DNA of 14,323 bases from Desulfocapsa sp. (lineage in GTDB: Bacteria; Desulfobacterota; Desulfobulbia; Desulfobulbales; Desulfocapsaceae), in contig JAOZLI010000035.1 of NCBI GenBank assembly GCA_029934915.1, positions 1 to 14,323 of the forward strand, written 5' to 3'. Shown in pieces: positions 1 to 14,271 of this stretch (its first letter is position 1; every line of letters starts with the position of its first letter). A program made the translations under genes and the position numbers. The notes below the pieces were generated by a model. The model saw only the letters and a list, made by a program, of their open reading frames with translations, made no database searches and was not told the origin of the DNA.

Positions 1-245
1 CGTACCTATGTGTGATGCTTGCTTAAGCTGGGGGGCTTACGGGGGCAGCTAATTGCTTCACCAAAACATGCTTTGCAAACTTTTGCTCTTGCAAAGCTGC
101 GAAAAATGTAAACTTGCCGTTAAAATTCGATAGCACTTGTTTCTGAATTATTAGGCAAAACCATAACTTCCTGTTAATTACATCCTAGCCAACCAACCTC
201 TCCTATTTGTTAAGCAAATAGCTGTCCTAGAAAAACTTCCCCCTC
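1..245. other. non-coding stretch downstream of glnA, nothing recognised except one hairpin
   Basis: No open reading frame with recognisable protein content lies between the window edge and the glnA terminator. The only structure seen is a 9-bp perfect inverted repeat, GCTTTGCAA at 70-78 and TTGCAAAGC at 89-97, with a 10-nt loop. It could be part of a terminator for an unseen neighbouring gene, but no convincing U-tract follows directly on either strand. Confidence 0.4.
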
Positions 246-287
246 CAAAAACAAAAAGCCCTGCCGACAAAAAAGTCAACAGGGCTT
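246..287 (-). terminator. intrinsic terminator of glnA
   Basis: On the minus strand an 8-bp GC-rich stem (AAGCCCTG pairing with CAGGGCTT, 280-287 and 256-263) encloses a loop that can add a GAC/GTC helix. It is followed by a T-rich run (TTTTTGTTTTT, read from about 257 down to 246). This is a classic Rho-independent terminator about 40 nt past the glnA stop, so the nitrogen cluster probably ends here. Confidence 0.9.
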
Positions 288-297
288 AACAAACAGC

Positions 298-317
298 TTC
301 TTCCGCATGCGGAAGAA
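298..317. repeat. 20-bp perfect palindrome just after the glnA stop
   Basis: TTCTTCCGCATGCGGAAGAA is a perfect 20-bp palindrome starting 10 bp beyond the glnA stop codon and immediately before the intrinsic terminator. In RNA it would form a short stable stem in the 3' untranslated region. It may back up termination or protect the message from 3' exonucleases. The palindrome is seen directly; its role is inference. Confidence 0.6.
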
Positions 318-326
318 AGAACTCAA

Positions 327-1655
327 CTAATAAATATCAAGATACTCATCAAGCTCCCAATCGGTAACAGCAGTACGATAACGATCCCACTCATCTTCTT
401 TAGCTTCAATATACTTAGCAAAGATATGAGAACCAAGGGTAGCCTCGGCAATAGGGTTGGCCTTAAGTTCCTCAATAGCCTCTTTCAGACTTCCTGGCAT
501 AACAACAATACCAGCGTCATCCATCTCGGCAGGACTCATCTTGAAGATATCTTTATCAACAGATGCAGGAGGAGCCATCTTGTTCTTCACACCGTCAAGA
601 CCTGAATTGAGCATCATGGCAAGTGCAAGATATGGGTTACAGGCTGGATCCGGGCAGCGAATCTCAGTACGAGTTCCCAGCCCACGAGACGCTGGAATAC
701 GAACAAGCGCAGAGCGGTTAGAGGCTGACCATGCAGCATAAACCGGAGCTTCGTACCCTGGCACAAGACGCTTGTAAGAGTTTACCAGCGGGTTCGTTAC
801 TGCAGCAAAACCGCGGGCATTTTTCAATGAACCTGCGATATACTGATATGCAATCTCAGAAAGCTGAAGAGGCGCGCTCTCGTCAAAGAAAGCATTGGTG
901 CCATCGGCATTAAAAAGAGACTGGTTGGTATGCATACCGGAACCGTTGATACCAAAAATTGGCTTTGGCATAAAGGTTGCGTACAGGCCGTAACGGGCAG
1001 CAACTGACTTAACAACCCATTTGAAAGTAATGGTGTTATCAGCTGCGGTAAGCGCATCGGAATATTTGAAGTTAATCTCATGCTGTCCTTCTGCAACTTC
1101 ATGGTGAGACGCTTCAATCTCAAAACCCATCTCTTCGAGGGTTTCAATAATCTCACGACGACAATCATTACCAGTATCTTCAGGATCAAGGGAGAAGTAT
1201 CCCGCAACATCATTAGTGATGGTAGTAGCACGACCTTCCTCATCCTTTTCGAAAAGGAAGAATTCAGCTTCAGTACCCACGTTCATGGTGTAACCCATCT
1301 CTTTGGCTTCGGCAAGAACACGCTTGAGATTGTTACGTGGGCAACCTTCAAAGGGAGTTCCGTCGGATTTTGCCACATCACAAATAATACGAGCAGCAGC
1401 AACACCATCCTGATTTCTCCAGGGGAGAACGGTGAAGGTGTCATAGTCAGGCTTCAGGTACATATCAGACTCATTGATACGAACAAAACCATCAATGGAG
1501 GAGCCATCAAACATCATCATACCATCAAGTGCCTTTTCTATCTGGCTTTTTGGAATGGCAACGTTTTTCATAAAACCAAAAATATCAACAAACTGGAGGC
1601 GGAAATAATGAATATTTTCCTCCTCGATGGTTCTCATAATTTCGTCCCTGGTCAT
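327..1655 (-). CDS. glnA: glutamine synthetase, type I-alpha (GSI-alpha)
   Basis: Condenses glutamate and ammonia with ATP to give glutamine in the cytoplasm; the family enzyme is a dodecamer. The 442-residue length and sequence fit the Bacillus/archaeal alpha branch rather than the ~470-residue beta branch. Visible features: DGSSIDGF loop (50-57), metal-binding Glu pair in GTEAEFFLF (E129, E131), [10 protein letters not shown] (184-193), GSGMH with H242, the flap Glu in PGYEAP (E302), and TRTEIRCPD (329-337). Arg59 in GFVRINESD matches B. subtilis Arg62, the glutamine feedback residue. At the position of the beta-type adenylylated Tyr there is Phe371 (KDIFKM), so covalent control looks absent. 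An AAGGAG ribosome site 8 nt before the ATG supports the start. It is the last gene of the cluster, with a hairpin leader upstream and a terminator downstream. Confidence 0.97.
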
Positions 1656-1687
1656 CGTACAATCTCCTTACTGAAGTTTAAATATTC

Positions 1688-1722
1688 TCTTTTATCCCAG
1701 GCATCATCCAAGGGATAAAAGA
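1688..1722 (-). promoter_or_regulatory. stem-loop in the glnA leader
   Basis: An 11-bp perfect inverted repeat (TCTTTTATCCC at 1688-1698, GGGATAAAAGA at 1712-1722) encloses a 13-nt loop, 33 nt upstream of the glnA ATG and just before its ribosome site. A second small repeat, CCCG-TTA-CGGG, lies at 1727-1737. A TATAAA box (minus strand, 1740-1745) lies upstream but has no good -35 partner. The hairpin could be an operator, an mRNA structure or part of an attenuator. It is not followed by a U-tract, and I do not recognise it as a known riboswitch, including the glnA glutamine riboswitch. Confidence 0.5.
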
Positions 1723-1903
1723 AGTTCCCGTTACGGGTTTTTATACCTGAAATTTCGTTAAAAAATACAACAAATACTCATTACTTTTTTTTACGTAATA
1801 ATTCAATTAAAAATCTATCCGTTACCCCAACACCACGCTTACAAGAAGCAGGGCATTCAAAAACAAATCATGAAATATACGGTGCTCTAGATGGCTGGGT
1901 TAA

Positions 1904-3055
1904 TCATAATTCAAACTCGTCTGCATCCACGTAACATTCAGCTTTTCTGCCAAGAACAGTAAGAATTTTTCCCGCGACAAATCCAGTACCAGCAGCGATA
2001 AGGATTGTAATCCCAATCCCGGTCAGCTGACTTGTTTTATCAATACCATTTGCAATAAACAGAGCCGCTACACCACCAAGAATACCAGGGATACCATGTA
2101 AATTCATAACCCCGCAGGTATCTATCCCCTTTAGAACACTTTCAACTTTACCCTGCAACACTGCAAAACCAAATGTCGAAATTGCTCCTGCCACCAAACC
2201 GATCACAAAGGAAGATGCAGGAGAGGCGACATCACACGTTGAACCTATTGCTACACCACCCGCCAATGCAGCATTAGCAATATCTGCAGCTGAGATCTTT
2301 CCACGCAGCCCAACAGTGGCAAAATACGTTGCCAGTGTTGCACCGGAAAGAGCCAGAATAACATTTATAGCTGTATGCGGAACAAGCTCTGGCGCCACAA
2401 GGGCTGCGCAAAAACTTGGCCAGAACAGCCAGAGTATCATACTCCCAAGCAGAGAGAACCTATCACTTGTGTCGTCCGACTCAATGGGCTCATCCATCTC
2501 CTTTTTAGTCGTCATTGTCATAATGACTCCAAGCCCGAAAATCGCTCCAAAGGCATGAATGACTATGGAACCACCCGTATCGACAAATGCTCCTGACGCT
2601 ATAAGGCCAAAGCCTTCATCCAAAATAATCCATTCGTTCAGAGCGTAGCAGGGAATGAAAAGAAGGCCAAGTAATATATACTGTCCCATTTTCAGCCTGC
2701 CAAGTGGTGCTCCGGCACAGATTAGAAGACTGGCAGCCGCGAATTCTGCAAGAATCAGGCTGTCAATCTCAGATCCTGAGTGCCCCAAAATCCCAAGGCT
2801 ATCTTTTAAAATGTAAAGAGGAATAGCAACACTCACCAACAAATACGTTGCAGTAACCGCCGAGCGGCCATACTTCTTTACAAAAACCATCAGAAAACCG
2901 AAACCAGCCAGCAGCATAGCCATAATATGGATAGCTCGATTGTACTTCTGTACTTCAATAACATGCTCAAGCTCGGTAGCACCACAGGCAGCAACCGTCG
3001 AGAGCAAAACAAATAATGACAACAATACCGTAAAACAGACTCCTGATTTCTTCAT
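1904..3055 (-). CDS. Rhesus (Rh)-type ammonium/ammonia channel
   Basis: A 383-residue, very hydrophobic membrane protein of the Amt/Mep/Rh superfamily that belongs to the Rh branch rather than the Amt branch. Rh signatures run in order: FLMVFVKKYGRSAV (54-67), EFAAASLLICAGAPLGR (104-120), ALNEWI (138-143), DTGGSIVIHAFGAIFGL (159-175), LLGSMILWLFWPSF (202-215), NAALAGGVAIG (261-271) and DTCGVMNLHGIPGILGG (312-328). The twin pore histidines are H167 and H320; candidate gate phenylalanines are F105 and F215. An N-terminal hydrophobic stretch (residues 8-23) followed by a polar segment looks like a signal peptide or first membrane helix. The C-terminus is short and lacks the PII-binding tail of Amt. 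The start ATG has GAGGAG 12 nt upstream, a long spacing, and no alternative in-frame start was found between. It probably conducts NH3 (perhaps CO2) for the adjacent glutamine synthetase. I am confident of the family but not of the substrate. Confidence 0.9.
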   Translation of the reverse strand: MKKSGVCFTVLLSLFVLLSTVAACGATELEHVIEVQKYNRAIHIMAMLLAGFGFLMVFVKKYGRSAVTATYLLVSVAIPLYILKDSLGILGHSGSEIDSLILAEFAAASLLICAGAPLGRLKMGQYILLGLLFIPCYALNEWIILDEGFGLIASGAFVDTGGSIVIHAFGAIFGLGVIMTMTTKKEMDEPIESDDTSDRFSLLGSMILWLFWPSFCAALVAPELVPHTAINVILALSGATLATYFATVGLRGKISAADIANAALAGGVAIGSTCDVASPASSFVIGLVAGAISTFGFAVLQGKVESVLKGIDTCGVMNLHGIPGILGGVAALFIANGIDKTSQLTGIGITILIAAGTGFVAGKILTVLGRKAECYVDADEFEL

Positions 3056-3515
3056 GGGACAAGCGTTCTCCTCAAGGTTGACAGCTAATAAAACTACTCA
3101 AATCAATTCAAAGCGACTTGATAGTTTTACACACTTCCCTCAAGTTCGCTGACGTCAAGATTCGTAATTCCCAATCTTTTCGACAGCATCCCACCACTCA
3201 ACAACTATGCCAGAAACCTGACATCTCGACAACTAACCGAAATTCAGCGTTTATTTTGATGACAACTCAGCACCAGCGCGCAAATGCATTACATTCCTGT
3301 AAGATTAGCCGGAAAACCTTTCATTTTTGTATCATTTCGACATCCCTAACGATCTGGCACAGCATACTTAGTCAGTCGTACAACAGCAATACAACCTAAG
3401 CGACGAAAAACACGCGTATTCCAGTATACTAGAAACAACCGGCGCAGACAAACACAAAGCACTTAAGTGTTACACTTAATACTGCCTGGAAATATATTTT
3501 TACAAAAATGTAATT
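3056..3515. other. 460-bp non-coding gap between glnD and the Rh gene
   Basis: No plausible gene was found on either strand; the reading frames present are low-complexity and resemble no protein I know. The gap contains a 17-bp palindrome near the glnD end (3463-3479) and a weak sigma-54-like string on the minus strand at 3198-3212 (TGGCAT-N5-TTGAG) that lacks the -12 C. A promoter for the Rh gene is expected here because the gap is far longer than others in the cluster, but none stands out. Confidence 0.5.
3463..3479. repeat. 17-bp palindrome downstream of glnD
   Basis: TTAAGTGT-T-ACACTTAA is a perfect 8-bp inverted repeat around one central base, about 37 bp past the glnD stop. As RNA it would make a weak AU-rich stem with a 3-nt loop. 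Only a modest T-rich stretch follows on the minus strand, so it could be a poor terminator or a protein-binding site. Confidence 0.4.
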
Positions 3516-6077
3516 CTACGCCCCGCTGCCTATCCCATACAAAACACCATCCCGCAACTCTTCAACAAATGATTCATCAACAACCTTGTGCCCCTGCGCA
3601 TCCAGCACATAAAAGACATCTATAAGCTGCTCTACTTCCGTAGCAATATAAGCTCGATGAATCGTCAAGCCGAAATCAGCAAGTGTTTGCGTAATACGAT
3701 ACAGTTGCCCTGGTCTATCTGAGGAGTACAACTCTACTATGGTATACTTCTGTGAGGCTTCATTATCAACAATCACCCTTGCCTCGTCAATACCGGAAGG
3801 ACGTTTTCGCTTACCATAACTGTTCTTAAATTTCCTGTACAGCCTATGCCCTAACCCTAACCTGTGCCCAAGGGCAAGATTCAGATCTTCCTCCACCCCC
3901 TGCCAGTTCATTTCCTCAAATTCGACACCCTCTTCAGCCCGAAGCTCAAGAACATCAACCGCACACCCATTCTTCCAAGTAAAAACCTGGGCATTCAACA
4001 CGGACAGATTATGAAGGCTCAACACACCACAGATTTTGGCAAGCAACCCATGCTGATCCCGACACAGAACAAGGAGCGACCATTGCGAACGCATTTTTCC
4101 TGGAGTAAGCAATGCCTTCTGGCGAAGAATCTCACGATTCTCATGATAGATACGTAAATGCCCCGCCACCGTCTCAGGCGTAAAACTTAAAAGATAATCA
4201 GAAGGAAGCTCACCCACACTCATTCGCACATCCTGCTCTGACACGAGCAGAGAATCAACTTGCTGCCGAAGCCAATCCACGCCCTGATCCACCTGATACT
4301 GCATGTCAGCTGATACCGAAAACTGCAAATATGGAGAAACTTTTAAATACATATCAAACAGAAGCGTTGCCTTCCAATTACTCCAGGCAGATGGCCCGGT
4401 TGCACGGGAATCTGACACCGAAATCAAATAGAGCATGGCCAAACGATCACTATCCTCGATCTTTTCAGCACAATGCCTGATAAACATTTCATCATTCAAA
4501 TCGCGCCGCAATGCATTTTCCGGCAAAAAAAGGTGATAACGAACAACAAACTGCAAACTGCCCCGTTCCATCCCGTCAAAACCAAGCCGCGCTCCGACAT
4601 TTCCGACCAACTCTGCCCCGATCACGGAATGATCCACTCCTGCTCCTTTGCCAATATCATGAAGCAGTGCAGCAAGAAACAGTACACGAGCAGAGGAAAC
4701 ACTCTGAAATATCGACTCTTCGGAGCTTACAACCGAACGCAACTCAGCCACACACTGCAAAAGATGTCGATCCACGGTATAAATATGATACACATCATGC
4801 TGAGCCAGCGACTCAATCTTGCCAAACTCCGGGATGTAAGCAGAAAGTAGTCCTGTTTCCAGCATCACTTCCAAAACCGAGAGAATATCCTTACCAGATT
4901 CCAGTATCTCAAAAAAGGGCTTCGACATCCTGACAGAAGAACGTAGTTTGTCAGTCACCAACCCAAGATTTCCAGCAACAATTTTCCGGCTTCTATGATG
5001 TATGGGCAAGCCACTCCTGGCGGCAACCAGAAAAACCCGCATCAGCAAATATGGCCGGGCCTTCAAATCAGCACTCTGCGCCACGAGATGAACTCGATTA
5101 TTACGTATCGCTATCCCTTTTTCAACAGCACTGGACATCCCAACCGTCCCATCTGCGAGCTCTAACACATCGTCAACGTGCTCGAAAAAGAGATCGGTCG
5201 TCACAGCAATTACTTGCAAGTGGCGATAGAACTCCCGCATAAAATTTTCAACGCCAAGTACACCGTCACGGTTCCGATACCCAAAAGCCTCTGCCATCTC
5301 TTCCTGCAGCTCAAAATAGAGCTGTTCATTCTTACGACCGCTGATGTAATGCAGGCGGTTGCGAACCTTGACCAACATATTCCAGGCTTCAAGAAACGCT
5401 TTCTTTTCCTCTTCGAGCAATATGCCTGCGTTGCTTATAGCTTCAACACTCCGCAAGCCGAAAACAACGATTGCTATCCAGAGCATGGCCTGGATATCAC
5501 GCATTCCACCTTTACTTTCCTTGATATTCGGTTCGAGCAAATACCCATGGCTACCAAAGCGAAGCCTGCGTTCACGCCGAAAAGTCTTCATAACCTGGAC
5601 AAACTCGTCCCTTGCCCCTTCCACAAAATCCGCCTGATACTGCTGACGCAATTCTTCAAAAAGGGTTGACGACCCAACAAGAAACCGCGCATCAAGCATG
5701 GCTACCTGAAAAAAGAAGTCATCCTTCGCATGACTCATACATTCGTCAACGGTACGCACACCATGCCCGACATCAAGCCCGGTATCCCACAGGGGATAAA
5801 GCACACCGTTCACAACTTTTTCCATCTCCTCCTTTGCCTCTTCACGATACAAAACAAGAAGGTCAATATCAGAATAGGGAAAAAGCTCACTACGACCATA
5901 CCCACCCAATGCCACGACAGCAATGGAGTCAGAATCCTCCCGACCTGACGCCACCCGAAATTGCAGGGTGATAAACTCATCGACCAGGCGACTCTGTTCC
6001 GTAAGTAAAGCCTGACCACTCAAGCCCTGCTTCCACAACTCCTCAAGAGCTTCCCTTTGTGCACGTAGTGTTGACAT
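3516..6077 (-). CDS. glnD: bifunctional [protein-PII] uridylyltransferase / uridylyl-removing enzyme
   Basis: Senses glutamine and adds or removes UMP on the T-loop tyrosine of PII. The 853 residues show the full GlnD architecture. The nucleotidyltransferase motif GGYGRSELFPYSDID (58-72) carries D70 and D72. A central helical linker with GGMRDIQ (190-196) follows, then an HD phosphohydrolase domain with ALLHDIGKG (470-478), and two C-terminal ACT domains near 667-712 and 780-827, the latter two expected to bind glutamine. Length is in the usual range for the family. The ATG lies 10 bp after the glnB stop, and its ribosome site (AAGG) overlaps the end of glnB, indicating co-transcription and probable translational coupling with its substrate. 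All catalytic motifs look intact, so both activities are predicted. Confidence 0.97.
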   Translation of the reverse strand: MSTLRAQREALEELWKQGLSGQALLTEQSRLVDEFITLQFRVASGREDSDSIAVVALGGYGRSELFPYSDIDLLVLYREEAKEEMEKVVNGVLYPLWDTGLDVGHGVRTVDECMSHAKDDFFFQVAMLDARFLVGSSTLFEELRQQYQADFVEGARDEFVQVMKTFRRERRLRFGSHGYLLEPNIKESKGGMRDIQAMLWIAIVVFGLRSVEAISNAGILLEEEKKAFLEAWNMLVKVRNRLHYISGRKNEQLYFELQEEMAEAFGYRNRDGVLGVENFMREFYRHLQVIAVTTDLFFEHVDDVLELADGTVGMSSAVEKGIAIRNNRVHLVAQSADLKARPYLLMRVFLVAARSGLPIHHRSRKIVAGNLGLVTDKLRSSVRMSKPFFEILESGKDILSVLEVMLETGLLSAYIPEFGKIESLAQHDVYHIYTVDRHLLQCVAELRSVVSSEESIFQSVSSARVLFLAALLHDIGKGAGVDHSVIGAELVGNVGARLGFDGMERGSLQFVVRYHLFLPENALRRDLNDEMFIRHCAEKIEDSDRLAMLYLISVSDSRATGPSAWSNWKATLLFDMYLKVSPYLQFSVSADMQYQVDQGVDWLRQQVDSLLVSEQDVRMSVGELPSDYLLSFTPETVAGHLRIYHENREILRQKALLTPGKMRSQWSLLVLCRDQHGLLAKICGVLSLHNLSVLNAQVFTWKNGCAVDVLELRAEEGVEFEEMNWQGVEEDLNLALGHRLGLGHRLYRKFKNSYGKRKRPSGIDEARVIVDNEASQKYTIVELYSSDRPGQLYRITQTLADFGLTIHRAYIATEVEQLIDVFYVLDAQGHKVVDESFVEELRDGVLYGIGSGA

Positions 6078-6087
6078 AACGCCTTAT

Positions 6088-6429
<342 letters not shown>

Positions 6430-6459
6430 TCACCTCTTATATTCATTAGCTTCTCATTT

Positions 6460-6481
6460 CTACGGTAATTATTCACCGTAG
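6460..6481. promoter_or_regulatory. inverted repeat upstream of glnB
   Basis: CTACGGT and ACCGTAG form a perfect 7-bp inverted repeat with an 8-nt spacer, 34-55 bp upstream of the glnB ATG. Symmetry and position suit an operator or a leader hairpin. No sigma-54 consensus was found between amt and glnB, so glnB may use its own sigma-70-type promoter near here or read-through from amt. Confidence 0.4.
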
Positions 6482-6540
6482 CAGCTTACCAACAAACTAC
6501 GCTTTACACACCTTATACATACATGTTCTTGATTACCATC

Positions 6541-6670
6541 AAAGCTCAGCTAAACTATATTTGATGTAGGAGCTCGCCCCTGCGAGCGATTGTAGAGTAT
6601 TGTTAAATCAGCAAAATCGCCCGCAGGGGCGGAGCTCCTACAATCAGATTTTACATTTACCTGAGCTTTA
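6541..6670. mobile_element. REP/BIME-like palindrome with long inverted arms (MITE-like)
   Basis: Two head-to-head units, 6565-6590 and 6616-6642, are almost perfect inverted copies: TGTAGGAGCTC-GCCCCTGC followed by GAGCGAT or GGGCGAT, differing by one inserted and one substituted base. Each unit is itself a hairpin (for example GCTCGC-CCCT-GCGAGC), as in REP sequences. The inverted similarity continues outward with AT-richer flanks that share AAAGCTCAG and TAAA on both sides, giving arms of about 50 bp. No target-site duplication is clear. It probably moved as a non-autonomous element served by a REP-associated transposase elsewhere. It sits between the amt stop and glnB, where it may also attenuate or stabilise transcripts. 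Confidence 0.75.
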
Positions 6671-6716
6671 TATTTACGCAACACGAAATATACACCCTCA
6701 ACGAAGGTATTTGAAC

Positions 6717-7940
6717 TTATGAATTGTAGGCAGTCTCAGAATGTTCGGTGGAATCCAGCCCCATAACTTCTGATTCCTCATCCACTCTCAACCCTAAAGT
6801 ACTATCAATAACCTTAAGCAACACCCAGCTGATAACAAGTGTGTACGAACCAACAACAAGTACGCCAAATACCTGCTTCCACAACTGAGCTACATTTCCA
6901 GCAAGAAGCCCATCAACGCCACCAGGATTCACGCTGGTAGATGCAAAAATCCCAAGACAGATGGTGCCAACCGCACCACCCACTCCGTGAATCCCCACGA
7001 CATCGAGCGAATCATCAAGCTTCAGCTTTCCTTTCAGATTTACTGCGCCATAACAAAGCATTCCAGCAAGCAAACCAATGGCAATTGCGGAATTTGGCCC
7101 TACAAACCCAGCCGCCGGGGTGATAGTCGCAAGCCCCGCAATAGCACCGGAAGCAGCACCTAAGGTGGTGGCATTCTTAATAAAGATCCATTCCATAACC
7201 ACCCACATAAACATACCCGCCATTCCGGCAAGATGGGTTGCCACAAAGGCAGTTGCGGCAACTTCGTTAGCCGCCAACGCAGACCCACCATTAAAACCAA
7301 ACCAGCCAAACCAGAGCAATCCAGTACCAATGAGTGTCATAGGCAAGCTATGGGGAATAAAACTTCGCTTCCCATATCCACGCCGGGGACCAACCACCAG
7401 GATTGCAGCAAAAGCCGCTGCACCACAGGTCACATGAACAACCAGACCTCCTGCAAAATCCATAACTCCCATCGCACCAAGCCAGCCACCTTTCCCCCAC
7501 ACCCAGTGACAAACAGGATTATAGACAAGAATTGCCCACAACAAGGCAAAAATTACAAAGGGAACAAACCGTACACGTTCAGCAAAGGCACCCGTGATAA
7601 GAGCCGGGGTAATAATGGCAAACATGCATTGATATATCATAAACACGGTTTGGGGAATGGTGGTCGCATAGTCAGGACTTGGCGCATTCGTCACACCATT
7701 CAAAGCGAACCAGGACAAATCTCCCACAAAGCCGCCAATATCGGGACCAAAGGACATGGAATATCCAAGATAGACCCATTCCAGTGAAATCAGGGCAATC
7801 ATAAAAAAACTTTGCATGATGGTTCCCAGTACATTTTTACTTCGAACCATTCCAGCGTAAAATAGAGCAAGTCCTGGTGTCATCAAAAGCACCAGCCCTG
7901 CCGCCGCCAGAATAAAGGCGGTATCCGCACCATTAATCAT
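6717..7940 (-). CDS. amtB: ammonium channel, Amt/AmtB family
   Basis: A 407-residue inner-membrane channel of about 11 helices that brings ammonium into the cell. Key Amt residues are visible: F107 and F216 (gate), W148 and S220 (periplasmic recruitment site), D161 in DFAGGLVVH, and the twin histidines H169 and H318 (GIHGVGG). GWFGFNGGS (212-220) is the family signature. The C-terminal tail GLRVDEESEVMGLDSTEHSETAY matches the conserved tail that contacts GlnK, so closure by the neighbouring PII protein is expected. The N-terminus enters the first helix directly without a cleaved signal peptide. A strong AGGAGG ribosome site precedes the ATG, and a sigma-54 promoter lies about 110 bp upstream. 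It is the first gene of the nitrogen cluster. Confidence 0.96.
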   Translation of the reverse strand: MINGADTAFILAAAGLVLLMTPGLALFYAGMVRSKNVLGTIMQSFFMIALISLEWVYLGYSMSFGPDIGGFVGDLSWFALNGVTNAPSPDYATTIPQTVFMIYQCMFAIITPALITGAFAERVRFVPFVIFALLWAILVYNPVCHWVWGKGGWLGAMGVMDFAGGLVVHVTCGAAAFAAILVVGPRRGYGKRSFIPHSLPMTLIGTGLLWFGWFGFNGGSALAANEVAATAFVATHLAGMAGMFMWVVMEWIFIKNATTLGAASGAIAGLATITPAAGFVGPNSAIAIGLLAGMLCYGAVNLKGKLKLDDSLDVVGIHGVGGAVGTICLGIFASTSVNPGGVDGLLAGNVAQLWKQVFGVLVVGSYTLVISWVLLKVIDSTLGLRVDEESEVMGLDSTEHSETAYNS

Positions 7941-8259
7941 TTTCTCCTCCTAGAGTGAATATTTCAGTATATTTGAGTCTTGTCCCCATACAGCTCCTCA
8001 ACTGTCTTACATACAGGAACAATTGACGCGACGACTATAGCAACTGACGTGCCAAAAAAACTTCTTCCCATGTTTCCCCTGACAGACCAGACTCTTATGC
8101 AATTACAGCACAGACTTCCCGCAGAAAGAAATCTTACATAAGCGTCACAAACACACTCTTGTTTTACATATTTGTAACATTCCTTGTCGCTATATTTACA
8201 TTTCCCTGTAGCCGTCACACACACTTGCCGGACGAGCGACTTTGGTTTACAGTGTCCCT
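7941..8259. other. divergent intergenic region between amt and the mtnA-like gene
   Basis: This 319-bp gap contains the amt sigma-54 promoter and an inverted repeat, TTACA-TATT-TGTAA at 8164-8177, about 110 bp upstream of the promoter. That is a typical enhancer distance, although the repeat does not match the E. coli NtrC site. A minus-strand frame (7964-8224) runs across the promoter and is not considered a gene. No clear promoter for the plus-strand gene was identified. Confidence 0.5.
8039..8055 (-). promoter_or_regulatory. sigma-54 promoter of amt
   Basis: Minus-strand TTGGCACGTCAGTTGCT matches the -24/-12 consensus (YTGGCACG-N4-TTGCW) at every defined position, with the required 10 nt between the -24 GG (8053-8052) and -12 GC (8041-8040). 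Transcription would start near 8028, giving an untranslated leader of about 88 nt before the amt ATG. Sigma-54 control is well established for nitrogen-limitation genes and implies an enhancer-binding activator such as NtrC acting from upstream. Confidence 0.85.
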
Positions 8260-9360
8260 ATGAAAATACAAAACAAACACTACCGAACCATCTGGCCAGA
8301 TGCTGGCGACAGGACGAAAATCCTCATCATTGACCAGCGACAACTTCCCCACGCATTTATCATTGAGACATTATCCTCCCTTAATGACGCAGTGGTTGCC
8401 ATTCGTGATATGCATGTCAGAGGAGCTGGACTTATTGGAGCCACTGCAGGCTTTGGCATGTATCTGGCTGCCGTCTGCAGAGAGAAAAAGAGTATAGACG
8501 TTGCACTTACAGAAGGCGCAAAGCTACTTGATGCCAGTCGTCCCACCGCAAGAAACCTGAAATGGGCCATTGACCGTGTGTTGCTTGCAGTACAAGCTGG
8601 AAAGGACGATACGGAAAAACTTGAGATATGCTTTCAAACAGCATGTGAGATTGCAGATGAGGATGCTGATTTTTGCCAATCACTTGGTCAACATGGCCTT
8701 GAAATTATAAAAGAACTCAGCAAATCGAAAAAGGGTGGGACCGTCAACATCCTCACCCACTGCAATGCTGGCTGGCTGGCATTTGTGGATTATGGCAGTG
8801 CCACAGCTCCAATCTACGCAGCACGGGACGCCGGAATTAATGTGCATGTATGGGTAGACGAAACACGCCCATGGAATCAAGGTGCAAAGCTCACCGCCTG
8901 GGAACTGCAGCAAGAGAATATCCCCTGCACGCTGATCACCGACAATGCCGGTGGACATCTTATGCAGAACGGGATGGTAGATATGGTAATTGTCGGGACT
9001 GACCGCACCACCCACACGGGAGATGTGGCCAATAAGATTGGCACGTACTTAAAGGCACTTGCCGCAAAGGACAACGACGTTCCTTTTTATGTAGCGCTGC
9101 CCTCCTCTACCTTTGACTGGGAATTGGACAACGGCCATGATATTCCCATCGAGGAACGATCAGGAGATGAAATCACTGGTATCAGTGGCTTGCACAAAAA
9201 CGGCAAGGTGGAAACAGTACAGCTCACCGCACCAGGGACGAAAGCCTTGAATTATAGCTTTGATGTTACCCCGTCACGTCTGGTGACTGGCTTGATTACT
9301 GAACGGGGTGTGGTGGCTGCGGATCGGGAGGCGATTCACCGATTATTTCCAGAAAAATAA
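8260..9360 (+). CDS. mtnA: S-methyl-5-thioribose-1-phosphate isomerase-like protein (eIF-2B/MtnA family)
   Basis: Predicted aldose-ketose isomerase turning 5-methylthioribose-1-phosphate into the ribulose form in methionine salvage. Family motifs, numbered from the ATG at 8260, are: MHVRGAGLIG (51-60), ILTHCNAG with catalytic Cys168, DETRPWNQGAKLTAWEL (200-216), TDNAGGHL, GTDRTTHTGDVANKIGTY with acid Asp248, VALPSSTFD and DVTPSRLVTGLITERGV (336-351). Several motifs deviate from textbook MtnA, which has VRGAPAIG and VGADR. The enzyme may therefore be a paralogue acting on a related sugar phosphate such as 5-deoxyribose-1-phosphate. A TTG six codons upstream (8242) is possible, but the ATG gives the usual family N-terminus; neither has a strong ribosome site. 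It stands alone between unrelated clusters. Confidence 0.8.
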   Translation: MKIQNKHYRTIWPDAGDRTKILIIDQRQLPHAFIIETLSSLNDAVVAIRDMHVRGAGLIGATAGFGMYLAAVCREKKSIDVALTEGAKLLDASRPTARNLKWAIDRVLLAVQAGKDDTEKLEICFQTACEIADEDADFCQSLGQHGLEIIKELSKSKKGGTVNILTHCNAGWLAFVDYGSATAPIYAARDAGINVHVWVDETRPWNQGAKLTAWELQQENIPCTLITDNAGGHLMQNGMVDMVIVGTDRTTHTGDVANKIGTYLKALAAKDNDVPFYVALPSSTFDWELDNGHDIPIEERSGDEITGISGLHKNGKVETVQLTAPGTKALNYSFDVTPSRLVTGLITERGVVAADREAIHRLFPEK

Positions 9361-9365
9361 AAAAC

Positions 9366-9454
9366 AAATATCGAATATCGAACAAGGAATGTCGAATGTC
9401 GAAGGAAAAGAACTGAAAGACAACAACGTAGAAGGTTGTTACACTTCGACATTC
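9366..9454. repeat. short intergenic repeat with inverted arms between convergent genes
   Basis: The sequence opens with tandem TCGAATATCGAA / GTCGAATGTCGAA motifs. GAATGTCGAAG (9394-9404) is repeated inverted as CTTCGACATTC (9444-9454), enclosing an inner perfect hairpin AACAAC (9422-9427) / GTTGTT (9435-9440). From memory, short tracts of this style (translating as NIEQGMSNVEG) recur in intergenic DNA of deltaproteobacteria; I could not verify this. It lies between the stops of mtnA and manC, so the hairpins may also act as a weak two-way terminator. Confidence 0.45.
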
Positions 9455-9463
9455 TCTTTTCAA

Positions 9464-10873
9464 TCACTCACTACGACCATAAACATCCTCCAAACGAACA
9501 ATATCATCTTCGCCCAGATAACTTCCATTCTGCACTTCAATCAGTTCCAGATCAATAACACCTGGATTTTCCAAACGATGAACAACTCCGGCAGGAATAT
9601 AGGTTGACTGATTCTCCCAGAGCAGAAAGACCTCCTCACCATTGGTTATCCGTGCCGTCCCGGCAACCACAACCCAATGCTCGTGACGATGATGGTGCAT
9701 CTGCAAGGAGAGCTTCGAGCCCGGACTAACAGTAATGCGCTTAATCTGATAACGAGGCTGCTCCTCAAGGACGGTATAACTTCCCCAGGGCCGATATACC
9801 GTACGATGTAGTTTGAATTCAGGGCGTTTGTCTTTTTTCAGGCGGGTAACAATCTTCTTCACCTCCTGCGTCCTGGACATGGGAGCCACTAATACTGCGT
9901 CCGATGTCTCAACAACAAGAGTATCCTCAAGACCAACGACAGCTACCAGAGTATCTTCCGCACGAATCAGGCAATTTTTCGTATCTTCCATGATCACGTC
10001 GCCATGACTCACGTTACCATTTTTATCTTTTCTGGAGACTTCCCATAGAGCATACCAGGAGCCAATATCACTCCAGTCAAGATCAGCAGCAACCACTGCC
10101 GCACGATTGGTTTTTTCCATTAAAGCATAGTCAATAGAGTCACTGGGCGAACGCTCCATGTCAGCCTTATCGAGTCTGTAAAAGACACCATCCCGACTAC
10201 CATGAGCAACCGAATCCTTCATAGCAGCGTACATTTCCGGGGCCAGTGCTTCCATTTCTTCCCTGAATGTTTTAATGGTAAAAGCAAACATACCGCTGTT
10301 CCAGAAATAATTCCCCTGCTCAACATAAGACTTGGCAGTAGCTAGATCCGGTTTTTCGCGAAAAGATTTCACAGAGCTTCCTTCACCCTGCTCAATATAT
10401 CCGTAACCCGTTTCAGGGTGCTGCGGCTCGATACCAAAGGTAACAATCTTCCCAGTGGCTGCCAATGCTGCAGCCTTGTTCACAGCTTCCTGAAATGCAT
10501 CTTTTCGCAGAATTAAATGATCTGCCGGCAAAACCAGCAAAACCGTATCTTCGTCCGACTCAAGGGCACAAAACTCCACCGCTCCACAAATTGCAGGAGC
10601 AGTATTTCTGCCAATGGGCTCCAGGAGGATATTACCACTCGCTGGCAAACCAAGCCCATCCACCTGGCTCTTTGTAATAAAACGATGTTCTTCACCCACA
10701 ACCAGCAGAGGAGGAAGAACTTCGTCCAATTGCGACACACGAAGTACCGTTGTCTGCAAAAGAGATGTTTCATCAATAAGTTGCAAGAGCTGTTTGGGAT
10801 ATAATTCACGGGAAAGCGGCCATAATCTGGAGCCAGTTCCACCAGCCAGAATAACAGGTTGAATTTTTTGCAT
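9464..10873 (-). CDS. manC: mannose-1-phosphate guanylyltransferase / mannose-6-phosphate isomerase
   Basis: Bifunctional type II enzyme supplying GDP-mannose for polysaccharide: the N-terminal half joins GTP and mannose-1-phosphate, and the C-terminal cupin interconverts fructose-6-P and mannose-6-P. The 469 residues are the normal full length. Visible motifs: nucleotide loop GGTGSRLWPLSRELYPKQ (11-28), EPIGRNTAPA (85-94), LPADH (115-119), FREKPD (171-176) and FWNSGMF (190-196). The cupin follows with RPWGSY (361-366), QMHHHRHEHW (391-400, metal-binding histidines), IPAGVVHRLEN (426-436) and the ending GEDDIVRLEDVYGR. It starts 15 bp after manB, forming a two-gene unit that yields GDP-mannose from phosphomannose. 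The ribosome site (AAGAGAT) is weak. No defects were seen. Confidence 0.96.
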   Translation of the reverse strand: MQKIQPVILAGGTGSRLWPLSRELYPKQLLQLIDETSLLQTTVLRVSQLDEVLPPLLVVGEEHRFITKSQVDGLGLPASGNILLEPIGRNTAPAICGAVEFCALESDEDTVLLVLPADHLILRKDAFQEAVNKAAALAATGKIVTFGIEPQHPETGYGYIEQGEGSSVKSFREKPDLATAKSYVEQGNYFWNSGMFAFTIKTFREEMEALAPEMYAAMKDSVAHGSRDGVFYRLDKADMERSPSDSIDYALMEKTNRAAVVAADLDWSDIGSWYALWEVSRKDKNGNVSHGDVIMEDTKNCLIRAEDTLVAVVGLEDTLVVETSDAVLVAPMSRTQEVKKIVTRLKKDKRPEFKLHRTVYRPWGSYTVLEEQPRYQIKRITVSPGSKLSLQMHHHRHEHWVVVAGTARITNGEEVFLLWENQSTYIPAGVVHRLENPGVIDLELIEVQNGSYLGEDDIVRLEDVYGRSE

Positions 10874-10888
10874 AGGTGTTATCTCTTT

Positions 10889-12250
10889 TTAAGATTTTAT
10901 AATCGCTAACAGTTCTTCGGTTTTTTCATGCAACAATGCAGGATCCCCACGACTCTCAACATTCAACCGCAGAAGCGGCTCCGTATTTGATTTCCTTACA
11001 TTAAAACGAAATTCAGGAAAAGACACGGAAAGACCATCAGTATAGTCTTTCTCTCCATCTTTAAATTGCTCTTCAATCTTTGCAATCACAGCATCGGGAT
11101 CCTTTACAACATTGTTAATTTCCCCGGACACGGGATAGGCAGCCATTCGCTTGGCGACAAGAGAAGAAAGCGACACCTTCTTGCGGCTCAAAAGAGATGC
11201 CACAAGCAACCAGGGAATCATGCCGGAATCGCAGTAACCAAAACTCTTAAAATAATGGTGAGCCGACATTTCTCCGCCGTAGATGGCATCTTCCTGCCGC
11301 ATGCGCTCTTTAATAAAGGCGTGTCCGGTTTGAGCCAAAACAGGAATACCTCCGGCATCTTTTATCAGCTCCCGTGTGTTCCAGGTCAGGCGCGGATCAT
11401 GAAGAATTTTCGATCCGGGATGTTGTTGTAAAAGCTCAAGCCCCAGCAACCCGACCAGATAGTAACCTTCTATAAAATTACCTTTTTCATCCCAGAAAAA
11501 ACAGCGGTCAAAATCACCATCCCAGGCTATACCCATATCGGCATCATTCTCTTTTACAAGTCTTGCAGTTTCATCGCGCTTTTCGGGTAAAAGCGGATTG
11601 GGAACACCATTGGGAAAGCTACCATCAGGCTCATGATAGGCCTTAATAAAAGTGAATGGAAGTGATTTTTCAAGAAGATCAACGATGGGAGCAGCGCAAC
11701 CGTTGCCATTATTAACCACCAACTTCAAAGGAGCTAACTGCTCTACGTCGACATAGGAAAGAAGGTGCTGGATATAACTTTCCTTACCGGAAACTTTCGT
11801 TACCACCCCTGCTTGCCCTGCAATTCCAGGGAGATCATCCTGCACAATCAACTCTGCCATTTCCCGCAGGCCTGCCTCACCAGTCACCGGCCGCGCCCCT
11901 CTGGTCACGAACTTCATGCCGTTATAGTCCGCAGGATTGTGGCTCGCTGTGATAATAATGCCCCCATCCACACCTTTATCCTCAAGGCTGAATGCAGCAT
12001 GATAAATCTCTTCCGTTCCACAGAGCCCCAAATGCAACACATCCACCCCGGACTCGATTAGTCCTGCAATCAAAGCCTCTGTCAATTCCGGACTGCTCAG
12101 ACGAATATCATGCCCTACTGCAATTTTACGGGGTTGAAAAACTTTGGCAAATGCACGCCCTATTTTATGGGCAAGCGCAGGATTCAACTCATCCGGCACT
12201 CTTCCGCGAATATCATAAGCCTTAAAGCAGGCGGGAATCTCAATGCTCAT
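10889..12250 (-). CDS. manB: phosphomannomutase (phosphohexomutase family)
   Basis: Interconverts mannose-6-phosphate and mannose-1-phosphate through a phosphoserine; some relatives also accept glucose phosphates (AlgC-type). The 453-residue protein has all four active-site loops: TASHNP with phosphoserine S103, the metal loop DGDFDR (244-249), the sugar-binding loop GEMSAHHYF (326-334), and the phosphate-binding loop RKSNTEP (419-425). GEMSAHHYF is the version typical of phosphomannomutase/phosphoglucomutase enzymes. AGGAT lies 6 nt before the ATG. It is first in the manB-manC pair and reads away from the rmlA-rmlD pair. The symbol cpsG is an alternative used in other genomes. Confidence 0.94.
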   Translation of the reverse strand: MSIEIPACFKAYDIRGRVPDELNPALAHKIGRAFAKVFQPRKIAVGHDIRLSSPELTEALIAGLIESGVDVLHLGLCGTEEIYHAAFSLEDKGVDGGIIITASHNPADYNGMKFVTRGARPVTGEAGLREMAELIVQDDLPGIAGQAGVVTKVSGKESYIQHLLSYVDVEQLAPLKLVVNNGNGCAAPIVDLLEKSLPFTFIKAYHEPDGSFPNGVPNPLLPEKRDETARLVKENDADMGIAWDGDFDRCFFWDEKGNFIEGYYLVGLLGLELLQQHPGSKILHDPRLTWNTRELIKDAGGIPVLAQTGHAFIKERMRQEDAIYGGEMSAHHYFKSFGYCDSGMIPWLLVASLLSRKKVSLSSLVAKRMAAYPVSGEINNVVKDPDAVIAKIEEQFKDGEKDYTDGLSVSFPEFRFNVRKSNTEPLLRLNVESRGDPALLHEKTEELLAIIKS

Positions 12251-12335
12251 TCTTTATCCTTTAAAAAGTGAACCTATTCGGGTAGAAACTAAATGAATTA
12301 TTCAACATAACAAACTCGTAAAAACCTAACATCAG

Positions 12336-12461
12336 GATGGCTAAGTAAAAAGCTTCATATTCGAGGAACGTAAATTTACTGGAATGAGGCGTACTTAAGT
12401 ACGCCGCAGTGACAGTAAATTTATAGTGACGAAGAAGATGAAGAGTTTTTACGACGCCATC
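12336..12461. mobile_element. 126-bp imperfect palindrome (MITE-like) between manB and rmlA
   Basis: The centre is a perfect 18-bp palindrome, GGCGTACTTAAGTACGCC (12388-12405). Moving outward, TAAATTTACTG (12371-12381) is matched by CAGTAAATTTA (12413-12423), then CTTCAT pairs with ATGAAG, GTAAAAA with TTTTTAC, and GATGGC at 12336 with GCCATC at 12456-12461. The arms share a common centre, so this is one element of about 63-bp half-length, not chance hairpins. A further CGTAAAAAC copy lies outside the left arm near 12317. It has no coding content and no clear target duplication. It separates two divergent sugar-nucleotide operons and may affect their promoters. Confidence 0.7.
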
Positions 12462-12508
12462 AAAAATAACATATCAACAAACGTAATAGAATTCAACAAA
12501 CGACTCCT

Positions 12509-13399
12509 ATGAAAGGCATTATCCTAGCCGGCGGCTCCGGCACACGACTGTATCCACTTACCCGAACACTTTCCAAGCAATTGATTCCGGTATACGACAA
12601 ACCGATGATCTACTATCCCCTATCCGTTCTTATGTTGGCCGGGATACAGGATATTCTAATAATCTCCACACCAAGGGACTTGCCACAATTTGAAGAACTT
12701 TTGGGAGACGGATCGCAACTAGGCATCTCCATCAGTTATGCTGCACAGCCTAAACCTGAAGGACTGGCACAAGCCTTTATTATTGGTAAAGACTTTATCG
12801 GGGACGACAATGTGGCGCTTATTCTTGGCGACAATATCTTTTTTGGCTCGGGATTTTCCCAAATTCTTGCCAATTGTGCAACATTGAACGAAGGGGGACT
12901 TATTTTTGGATACCCCGTTAAAGACCCTGAACGTTACGGCGTGGTGGAATTCGACGAAAACCACCAAGTTATTGGAATTGCTGAAAAGCCAGACAAGCCA
13001 AAATCAAAGTTTGCAGTTCCAGGCCTCTATTTTTACGATAATAACGTTATTGAGATAGCAGAAAACATAAAACCCTCTCCACGCGGAGAACTTGAAATCA
13101 CTGATATAAATATGGAATACCTGCGCCGCGGAGAACTTCTGGTACAACCTCTCAGCCGCGGTTTTTGCTGGCTCGATACCGGCACTCACGAATCCCTGCA
13201 ACAGGCATCAAGTTATGTGCAGGCAGTGCAGGACAGGCAAGGCTTAAAGATAGCCTGCATCGAAGAAATAGCCTACAGCCTAGGCTACATTGACGCCACG
13301 CAGATGAGAAACCTGGCAAAAGATATGCTCAAGAACCAATACGGCCAATACCTTATGGACATTGTAGCTGAACAAGAGACAGGAAGTGCCTTTCCATGA
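12509..13399 (+). CDS. rmlA: glucose-1-phosphate thymidylyltransferase
   Basis: First step of dTDP-L-rhamnose synthesis: dTTP plus glucose-1-phosphate gives dTDP-glucose. The 296 residues match the family length. Motifs: nucleotide loop [11 protein letters not shown] (8-18), [18 protein letters not shown] (22-39), [10 protein letters not shown] (80-89), LGDNIFFG with metal-binding D108, EKPDKPKS (159-166), GLYFYD (172-177), [10 protein letters not shown] (192-201) and [10 protein letters not shown] (221-230). Start codon and N-terminus fit the family, but no good ribosome site is visible upstream. The stop overlaps the rmlD start as ATGA, so the two are coupled. The synonym rfbA is equally used. 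Confidence 0.96.
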
Positions 13400-14271
13400 A
13401 AATCCTTATTACAGGTGGCAAAGGACAATTGGGTCAGGACGTAACCACGCTTCTTGAGAAAAAGCACACTGTCATTTGCTGCAGTTCTAAGGAACTGGAC
13501 ATTGGCAACAGGTTAATGGTGGAAAAGGCCTTCACCAACCACCGGCCCGAAATCATCATTAATTGTGCAGCCTATACCGCTGTAGACAATTGTGAGACAG
13601 AAAAAGAACTAGCCTGGCGGGTTAATGCTGTTGGCCCAGAAAACCTTGCGCTTTCCTGTGAAGCTACTGGCAGCAGACTGATTCACATTTCCACCGACTA
13701 TGTATTCGATGGCAAAAAACCAGTGGACACAAGCTATACAGAAAGTGATCCGGTCATGCCTCTTTCGGAATACGGCAAGAGTAAGCTGGCCGGTGAAGAT
13801 GCCATTGCCCGCTTTGCGGCAGATTCTCTCATCATACGCACTGCCTGGCTATACGGTTTAAAGGGAAACAACTTCCTCAAGACCATGCTCCGCCTTGCCC
13901 TTGCTGATCCCGAGCGGGAACTCAAGGTAGTGAACGACCAGTACGGATCTCTCACTTGGACGGCGACCCTGGCTGAACAGATCCAGGCAGTTCTCACATC
14001 TGAGATTCATGACATTGTTCATGCGACAGCTGATGGTTCGTCAACATGGTACGAAGGTGCCTGTTATTTCCTCGATTCCATGGGAGTACCTTACAGGCTT
14101 ACCCCTTGCAGCACAGCAGAATACCCGACACCTGCCCACAGACCAGGTAATTCAATCCTTGAAAACAAAAGGCTCAACGATGCTGGAGTGTCTGTTTTCC
14201 GCTCCTGGCAGGAAGATATTGACCGTTTTGTTGCATCCTACAAGGATACACTTCTGCAGGAGTTCAGGTAA
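13396..14271 (+). CDS. rmlD: dTDP-4-dehydrorhamnose reductase
   Basis: Last step of dTDP-L-rhamnose synthesis: NAD(P)H-dependent reduction of dTDP-4-keto-rhamnose. This 291-residue short-chain dehydrogenase/reductase has the Rossmann motif GGKGQLG (7-13), [12 protein letters not shown] (56-67), STDYVFDG (99-106), the catalytic Y126-x3-K130 in YGKSK, RTAWLYG (148-154) and the substrate-side [12 protein letters not shown] near the C-terminus. Its ATG overlaps the rmlA stop by 4 bp. The usual partners rmlB (dehydratase) and rmlC (epimerase) are absent from the window; they may follow beyond the edge or lie elsewhere. The 52 bases after the stop are too short to show a next gene. The synonym is rfbD. 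Confidence 0.95.

Follow-up and report, generated by a model that had tools for sequence, protein, structure and literature searches.

An Rh50-type channel gene in the glnD-glnA gap of a Desulfocapsa nitrogen cluster: sequence comparison points to a single-gene insertion beside a genus-kept dyad

INTRODUCTION

The role of bacterial Rh channels is debated, with ammonia uptake, ammonia release and CO2 passage all under discussion. Prokaryotic RH50 genes were reported in 34 of 3,853 genomes, for which horizontal transfer was argued, and Geobacter M21 is the only deltaproteobacterium in Table 1 of that paper (Matassi 2017, PMC5209957). An Rh gene found beside glnA in a Desulfocapsa sp. genome, in a cluster that also holds a PII gene and a normal amt, raises the question of how it came to lie there and what it may contribute next to an Amt. 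Here we analyze the whole 14,323-nucleotide stretch of contig JAOZLI010000035.1 (assembly GCA_029934915.1) on which this gene lies, referred to below as the window.

RESULTS

The gene encodes an ordinary bacterial Rh50 protein

The Rh open reading frame (383 aa, ATG start) was found exactly as the first-pass annotation had given it, with all four of its quoted motifs (FLMVFVKKYGRSAV, DTGGSIVIHAFGAIFGL, FWPSF, and DTCGVMNLHGIPG), in a cluster with glnA, PII, and a normal amt (Table 1). Against the Pfam family PF00909, Rh scored 164.8 bits and the window's Amt scored 418.4, whereas the NCBIfam amt model, with a cut-off of 343.3, recognized the Amt at 457.4 bits and left Rh below it at 107.9. The best match to Rh among all PDB chains was Nitrosomonas europaea Rh50 (NeRh50), with an E value of 1e-113, and this match and the PF00909 score together show that the assignment is not due to chance. 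The next PDB matches were RhAG (9e-51), RhCG (1e-47), and RhCE (2e-17), with E. coli AmtB at about 2e-9.

To place the protein, we built a tree of 137 rows by a quick method, with SH-aLRT supports rather than bootstrap and with no Mep rows. The 99 Rh rows (78 of 80 Rh loci, the window, 18 database proteins, NeRh50, and RhAG; L075 was left out for its broken frame and L053 for its missing 5' end) were all split from the 38 Amt rows with an SH-aLRT value of 100, so the earlier assignment to the Rh branch rather than to Amt holds. The exact place of RhAG in this tree is unsure because of long branches, its own above all. The best of five AlphaFold2 models, made with 34 sequences, reached a pLDDT of 86.3 and a pTM of 0.86 (the other four had pLDDT values of 82.8, 81.7, 67.0, and 39.8), and a Foldseek search with the Rh model returned NeRh50 at ranks 1 to 3 (TM 0.87, rmsd 1.7 to 1.9), then RhAG and RhCG, and then Amts. 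The window gene is thus an ordinary bacterial Rh50 that adds a member to an established family.

The Rh loci used throughout were collected with peptide patterns derived from the window's own Rh; the best 80 of 123 were kept, and these therefore represent the clade of this protein. When 79 loci and the window (80 Rh rows) were aligned with 36 Amt rows, the twin histidines, H167 and H320, and the Phe gate, F105 and F215, each proved to be present in 80 of 80 Rh rows, as did D159 and W212; the twin-histidine pore that had been proposed is thus supported as far as fold and residues go. The Amt S1 site (W148 and S219) is absent: the AmtB W148 position is I144 in the window's Rh and V, L, I, or M across the Rh rows, compared to W in all 36 Amt rows, and at S219 all 80 Rh rows have a gap where all 36 Amt rows have S. 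This is the pattern described for NeRh50, which of the S1 residues keeps the Phe alone (PMC10433425). Cys216, to which the first-pass annotation drew attention as standing at the Asn of human WPSFN, does align with RhAG N226, AmtB N216, and NeRh50 A195, but it is not peculiar to this protein, since every one of the 80 Rh rows has C in this column (none of the search patterns included this residue), NeRh50 has A, and RhAG and 36 of 36 Amt rows have N.

As had been noticed from the sequence, the Rh C terminus (...LGRKAECYVDADEFEL) lacks the conserved PII-binding Amt tail, GLRV..E..GLD..H.E.AY, a motif visible in the Amts examined. The neighboring Amt has this tail, and PII gating by the Amt-tail mode is thus not expected for Rh. 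At the N terminus of Rh (3055 to 2984), a lipobox-like VAAC occurs at Cys24, with the same letters in P0002, VIAC in P0003, and no such site in most listed relatives. We rejected a lipoprotein reading, as a simple pattern marked just 6 of 120 listed homologues (the window, P0002, P0003, P0028, P0060, and, at a different place, P0099) and so does not mark a feature of the clade.

Table 1. Features of the window discussed in the text
Feature	Position	Strand	Comment
glnA, type I glutamine synthetase	327..1655	-	native; ~90-98% identity to GlnA of 17/19 same-genus genomes
Hairpin in glnA leader (predicted)	1687..1723	-	paired changes across genus
Putative inserted DNA, ~1.67 kb	1815..3489		434 nt upstream of Rh, Rh, and ~89 nt downstream; edges ±~15 nt
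Rh50-type ammonia channel, 383 aa	1904..3055	-	signal-like N-terminal helix and NeRh50-like membrane-helix bundle; H167/H320, F105/F215
Second perfect dyad	3289..3302		inside insert; 234 nt upstream of Rh ATG
Native dyad, TTACA-N4-TGTAA	3500..3513		directly past glnD stop; relatives have dyad upstream of glnA, here Rh intervenes
glnD, PII uridylyltransferase	3516..6077	-	native; 65-76% identity to GlnD of 17/19 same-genus genomes
PII protein (glnB/glnK)	6088..6426	-	T-loop R47 and Y51 kept
amt, ordinary Amt	6717..7940	-	C-terminal tail GLRV...GLD..H.E.AYN present
Sigma-54-type promoter match TGGCACGTCAGTTGCT	8039..8054	-	upstream of amt
Perfect dyad	8164..8177		224 nt upstream of amt ATG

The surrounding cluster is native to the genus

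On the minus strand the cluster reads amt, PII, glnD, Rh, glnA, with family matches for all five products. The identities of GlnA and GlnD to same-genus proteins (Table 1) mark the contig as native to the genus; GlnA was not found in the remaining 2 of the 19 same-genus genomes. Among the best 120 homologues of GlnD, the closest one with a species name is from Desulfocapsa sulfexigens DSM 10523 (69%), and by these comparisons the window's genome groups with this species, in the same genus. The host assembly (3.06 Mb, 606 contigs, 83% complete) contains three PF00909 genes, namely, Rh and two amt genes, one in the window and the other adjoining a PII gene on contig C500. The rest of the window (8242 to 14271) is ordinary, with mtnA (8242 to 9360) followed by manC, a phosphomannomutase gene, rmlA, and rmlD.

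Two further features bear on the control of glutamine synthetase (GS). GlnA has a Phe at the place of the Tyr in adenylylated enzymes, and no GlnE scored above the cut-off in the incomplete (83%) genome, where the sole weak match was the window's glnD product; GlnD thus probably acts on PII only. The glnA leader contains a predicted hairpin of 11 pairs, preceded by CCC..GGG, that is kept in 13 aligned leaders (the window and 12 relatives), with 94.9% of cells able to pair and five pairs changed on both sides; none of 500 shuffles reached its pairing or covariation score. It had no Rfam match, nor did anything else searched, at gathering scores, and it is possibly a cis-regulatory RNA of glnA.

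Rh lies in a native intergenic gap as a single-gene insertion

What the first-pass annotation had missed is that Rh appears as a single-gene insert in the native gap between glnD and glnA, adjacent to a dyad that the genus retains at its nitrogen genes. In the 14 same-genus loci with both genes on the available DNA, this gap measures 185 to 207 bp in 13 and 347 bp in L121, compared to 1860 bp in the window. The two ends of the native gap align with positions 1 to 26 and about 1702 to 1855 of the gap in the window, and because these matches are short or 71 to 95% identical, the insert edges are uncertain by about 15 nt. Rh is the sole long gene of the approximately 1.67-kb insert, and no convincing direct repeats were found at its edges. 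On these alignments, the arrangement is a clean single-gene insertion.

Rh was absent from all 55 relatives searched (19 of the same genus, 15 of the same family, and 21 of the same order), in which the 36 matches to Rh outside its own genome all had at most 36% identity and 52 bits, compared to 808 bits for the window's Rh. At an E value of 1e-50, Rh occurs in 8 of 395 genomes of the phylum, its own included, four of them in one other genus. The earlier description of Rh as sparse in bacteria is therefore apt near the host, but it does not extend further, as related Rh50 genes are spread over many phyla. Two observations on Rh in this part of the tree of life stand apart from the window. A 4.5-kb contig labelled Desulfobulbaceae (GH16), L031, carries an Rh that falls elsewhere in the tree, next to one from Kiritimatiellales, and by its placement would be either a second, separate transfer or a misbinned contig. 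In genome G194 (phylum genus g139), two contigs (L181 and L182) each have a partial Rh match, and amt and PII precede only one of these.

In the tree, the window's Rh groups with two 97%-identical database proteins on other contigs, then with P0005, and, in a wider group, with L004 (Tharpella), L001 (labelled Desulfuromonadales), L002, L003, and L005. This position makes another anaerobe of the Desulfobacterota/Tharpella sphere the most likely source of a horizontal gain. Outside the coding part, comparison of the insert flanks with the 80 Rh loci (L001 to L080) gave nothing beyond short chance matches, so that none of these could be named as donor by its flanking DNA. We also rejected the transfer of rh and glnA as a unit, given that the window's GlnA is about 90 to 98% identical to same-genus proteins versus 74 to 76% to those of the Tharpella-like loci and that the native glnA leader is retained.

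The insertion site adjoins a dyad conserved in position at nitrogen genes

The insert begins about 10 nt past the native dyad TTACA-N4-TGTAA. The window has three perfect copies (Table 1) and, allowing one mismatch, four (the fourth at 11104), compared to 0.33 expected and with as many in 0 of 200 shuffles, a statistic that is after the fact because the motif was first spotted in the window, which leaves the relatives as the independent test. In these, a dyad with at most one mismatch lies near the glnD stop in 12 of 14 same-genus gaps (the misses are L129 and L131) and, for other genera of the family, anywhere in the glnD-glnA gap in 4 of 8 cases. Counting the window's, 18 of 21 genomes have such a dyad within 450 nt upstream of amt (it is missing in G001, G002, and G011), compared to a mean of 0.5 of 22 stretches after letter shuffling; this count excludes a short duplicate stretch of G006 and L207 (perfect site, filtered out), while L219 and L222 had no usable amt start.

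Genome-wide counts gave a different picture. The host genome has 8 perfect dyads versus 1 control match; besides the three in the window, one more is at nitrogen genes, preceding the second PII-amt pair (C500), and the other four, judged by eye and without a family search, are not at nitrogen genes. Across 20 genomes of the genus, however, there were 87 perfect dyads versus 72 matches to the backward control, showing no genome-wide enrichment. The excess in the host genome thus failed as a genus rule, and the argument rests on position: by its placement in relatives, the dyad is a position-conserved, operator-like site at nitrogen genes that is not globally enriched.

At the density of 8 per 3.06 Mb, the chance of a perfect dyad in the 434-nt insert flank is about 0.001, by rough arithmetic uncorrected for AT-rich spacers. 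Dyads with at most one mismatch occur within 500 nt of Rh in 3 of the 80 other Rh loci, with a perfect copy in L007 only. The distance from the native dyad to glnA is now about 1.85 kb rather than about 0.2 kb, and with two dyads upstream of it, Rh sits between glnA and the former upstream site of glnA. In the passages on possible regulators covered by our search, no description of this motif was found. An NtrC-like protein is a candidate regulator, as the core NtrC regulon in Proteobacteria is reported to include glnA, amtB, and glnBK (PMC5343134).

Scored against the sigma-54 consensus, the window's amt promoter matches 12 of 12 positions and other amt promoters of the genus match 10 to 12. 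Sigma-54 control of Rh was rejected, as the best site before Rh scored 9 of 12, which 136 of 600 shuffles matched or passed, and no site better than chance was found before glnA or the second PII-amt pair. Over positions 1 to 8700, sigma-70-like sites (12 versus 12.5 expected) and terminators (11 versus 8.6 expected) were near chance.

Rh recurs beside glutamine synthetase in other lineages

The first-pass annotation had proposed a survey of Rh-glnA adjacency, which we carried out by a simple open reading frame rule on the 80 Rh loci, 69 of which have a downstream and 75 an upstream neighbor on the available DNA (that of L075 being a fragment of its own broken Rh). GS was the commonest family directly downstream of Rh, at 7 of 69 loci, with the other 62 lacking it. 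In four of the seven (L002, L004, L005, and L075), which are close kin of one clade, GlnA is 74 to 76% identical to the window's; in L010 it is 48% identical, and in L006 and L012 the GS is type III, as judged by length and by GSIII_N in two members. PII was among the commonest upstream neighbors (4 of 75), and L012 has the order amt-PII-PII-Rh-GS. On a tree of 68 rows, 7 of them positive, the window included, the presence of GS directly downstream requires at least five changes, some of which are possibly losses. By this survey, the pairing of Rh with GS of types I and III recurs in several phyla.

Two side observations concern these neighbors. In L066, an Ignavibacteriae metagenome-assembled genome (MAG), an Amt gene lies directly downstream of Rh. 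The PII proteins beside Rh in L002, L004, L005, and L075 are about 118 aa long and, being 36 to 40% identical to the window's PII, are probably of a different type.

DISCUSSION

We consider it fairly probable that the acquired Rh forms a nitrogen-controlled route by which ammonia/ammonium reaches GS, alongside an Amt that PII can shut. The channel would be of the N. europaea Rh50 kind, a trimer by analogy, encoded by a gene that was gained horizontally and entered the glnD-glnA gap alone, just past the operator-like dyad. Dyads at amt, glnA, and Rh, with GS as the commonest downstream neighbor, suggest that Rh is expressed together with the nitrogen genes. It may then provide an extra ammonia/ammonium path that PII cannot plug, its gradient kept by GS, whereas the Amt of the same cluster could be closed by PII; such a path would bring most benefit in anoxic sediment rich in ammonium, where PII would close Amt. 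Several results count against this reading. Most downstream neighbors of Rh (62 of 69) are not GS, and a single clade accounts for four of the seven that are. Genome-wide, perfect dyads show no enrichment in the genus (87 versus 72), and the inserted upstream DNA matches none of the Rh loci compared. With no better-than-chance sigma-54 site before Rh, glnA, or the second PII-amt pair, the promoter comparison gives no support for a common mode of control.

A further step, which we put forward only tentatively and think somewhat doubtful, is that the inserted Rh captured the native nitrogen operator and, with the recurrent Rh-GS pairs, represents an undescribed Rh-GS module. If so, an Rh channel that PII cannot plug would supply GS when the PII-gated Amt is closed. 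The occurrence of Rh next to GS of different types in separate lineages, together with the nitrogen-gene dyad here, argues for assimilation, and the place is instructive, as Rh appears inserted beside a nitrogen-gene dyad with the same neighbor that it has in several other lineages.

Alternatively, Rh could serve ammonia release or pH balance, letting excess NH3 out in ammonium-rich sediment, with its proximity to glnA reflecting co-expression only. Ammonia permeases are believed to act in excretion and pH homeostasis (PMC5209957), methylammonium transport by NeRh50 is described as pH-dependent and bidirectional (PMC10794816), and porewater ammonium is reported to reach 16 mM in the vent sediments where Tharpella was described (PMC9213671). 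We nevertheless regard this role as unlikely, because assimilation is indicated by the dyad shared with amt and by the fact that Rh is paired, in several lineages, with GS, PII, and amt. Less likely again is a neutral landing, in which Rh inserted by accident at an intergenic site that tolerates it and its proximity to glnA has no significance. Such an accident would fit the absence of GS directly downstream of Rh in most other bacteria (62 of 69 loci) and the dyad counts across the genus, which differ little from those of the control pattern, but it would leave as coincidences the perfect dyad in the 434-nt flank, when the 3.06-Mb genome has 8 in all, and the recurrent pairing with two GS types.

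That Rh is mainly a CO2 path, Desulfocapsa being an autotroph, seems very improbable. A possible CO2 pocket has been described in NeRh50, but the same source reports no CO2-dependent growth effect of an N. europaea Rh50 knockout (PMC10433425), and here the neighbors are nitrogen genes, with no carbon-fixation gene recognized among ten window proteins scanned. An assembly chimera or wrong bin, with the Rh piece foreign to the genome, might be suspected from an assembly of 606 contigs and 83% completeness in which Rh has no counterpart in any searched relative, but it is scarcely plausible, as it would need two joins inside one 200-bp gap on a contig whose GlnA and GlnD are native, with similar GC3 values in Rh (0.39) and glnA (0.41) and two further proteins 97% identical to the window's Rh on other contigs.

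The window has an amtB-glnK-type pair of the kind subject to PII gating, with T-loop R47 and Y51 in PII and the tail on Amt, and its Rh differs from a PII-gated Amt in having no such C-terminal tail. Like the prokaryotic RH50 genes of Matassi 2017 (PMC5209957), Rh is single copy, patchy in distribution, and apparently of horizontal origin. The main text of that paper names GS once, and not as an RH50 neighbor. Among the listed titles and abstract openings on Rh50 or Rh-type transporters with GS, PII, or operon, on the Desulfocapsa ammonium transporter, and on Rh50 in MAGs, none reported an Rh-GS pair. The Rh50 family is thus known, and the Rh-GS arrangement appears to be unreported within the literature searched.

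Rh50 proteins 79 to 84% identical to the window's are encoded in the loci of Candidatus Tharpella and its kin (the label is that of L004; those of L002, L005, and L075 are different or vague). As in the window, Rh there lies directly upstream of a same-strand type I glnA, with amt and PII upstream. These loci differ in having no glnD match, a PII only 36 to 40% identical, no perfect dyad in the available DNA, and, in L075, a broken Rh. Another close relative is N. europaea Rh50 (PDB 3b9w, 3bhs, and 3b9y), which shares 54 to 55% structural-alignment identity (TM 0.87), the twin histidines, the Phe gate, and the lack of the W148/S219 site with the window's Rh. NeRh50 moves ammonium and methylammonium (PMC10433425, PMC10794816), and both neutral and electrogenic transport have been reported for it (PMC10433425). 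It differs in having Ala in place of Cys216, and the window's gene differs in lying beside glnA; moreover, N. europaea is listed without an AMT (PMC5209957, Table 1), whereas the window's host has two Amts alongside its Rh.
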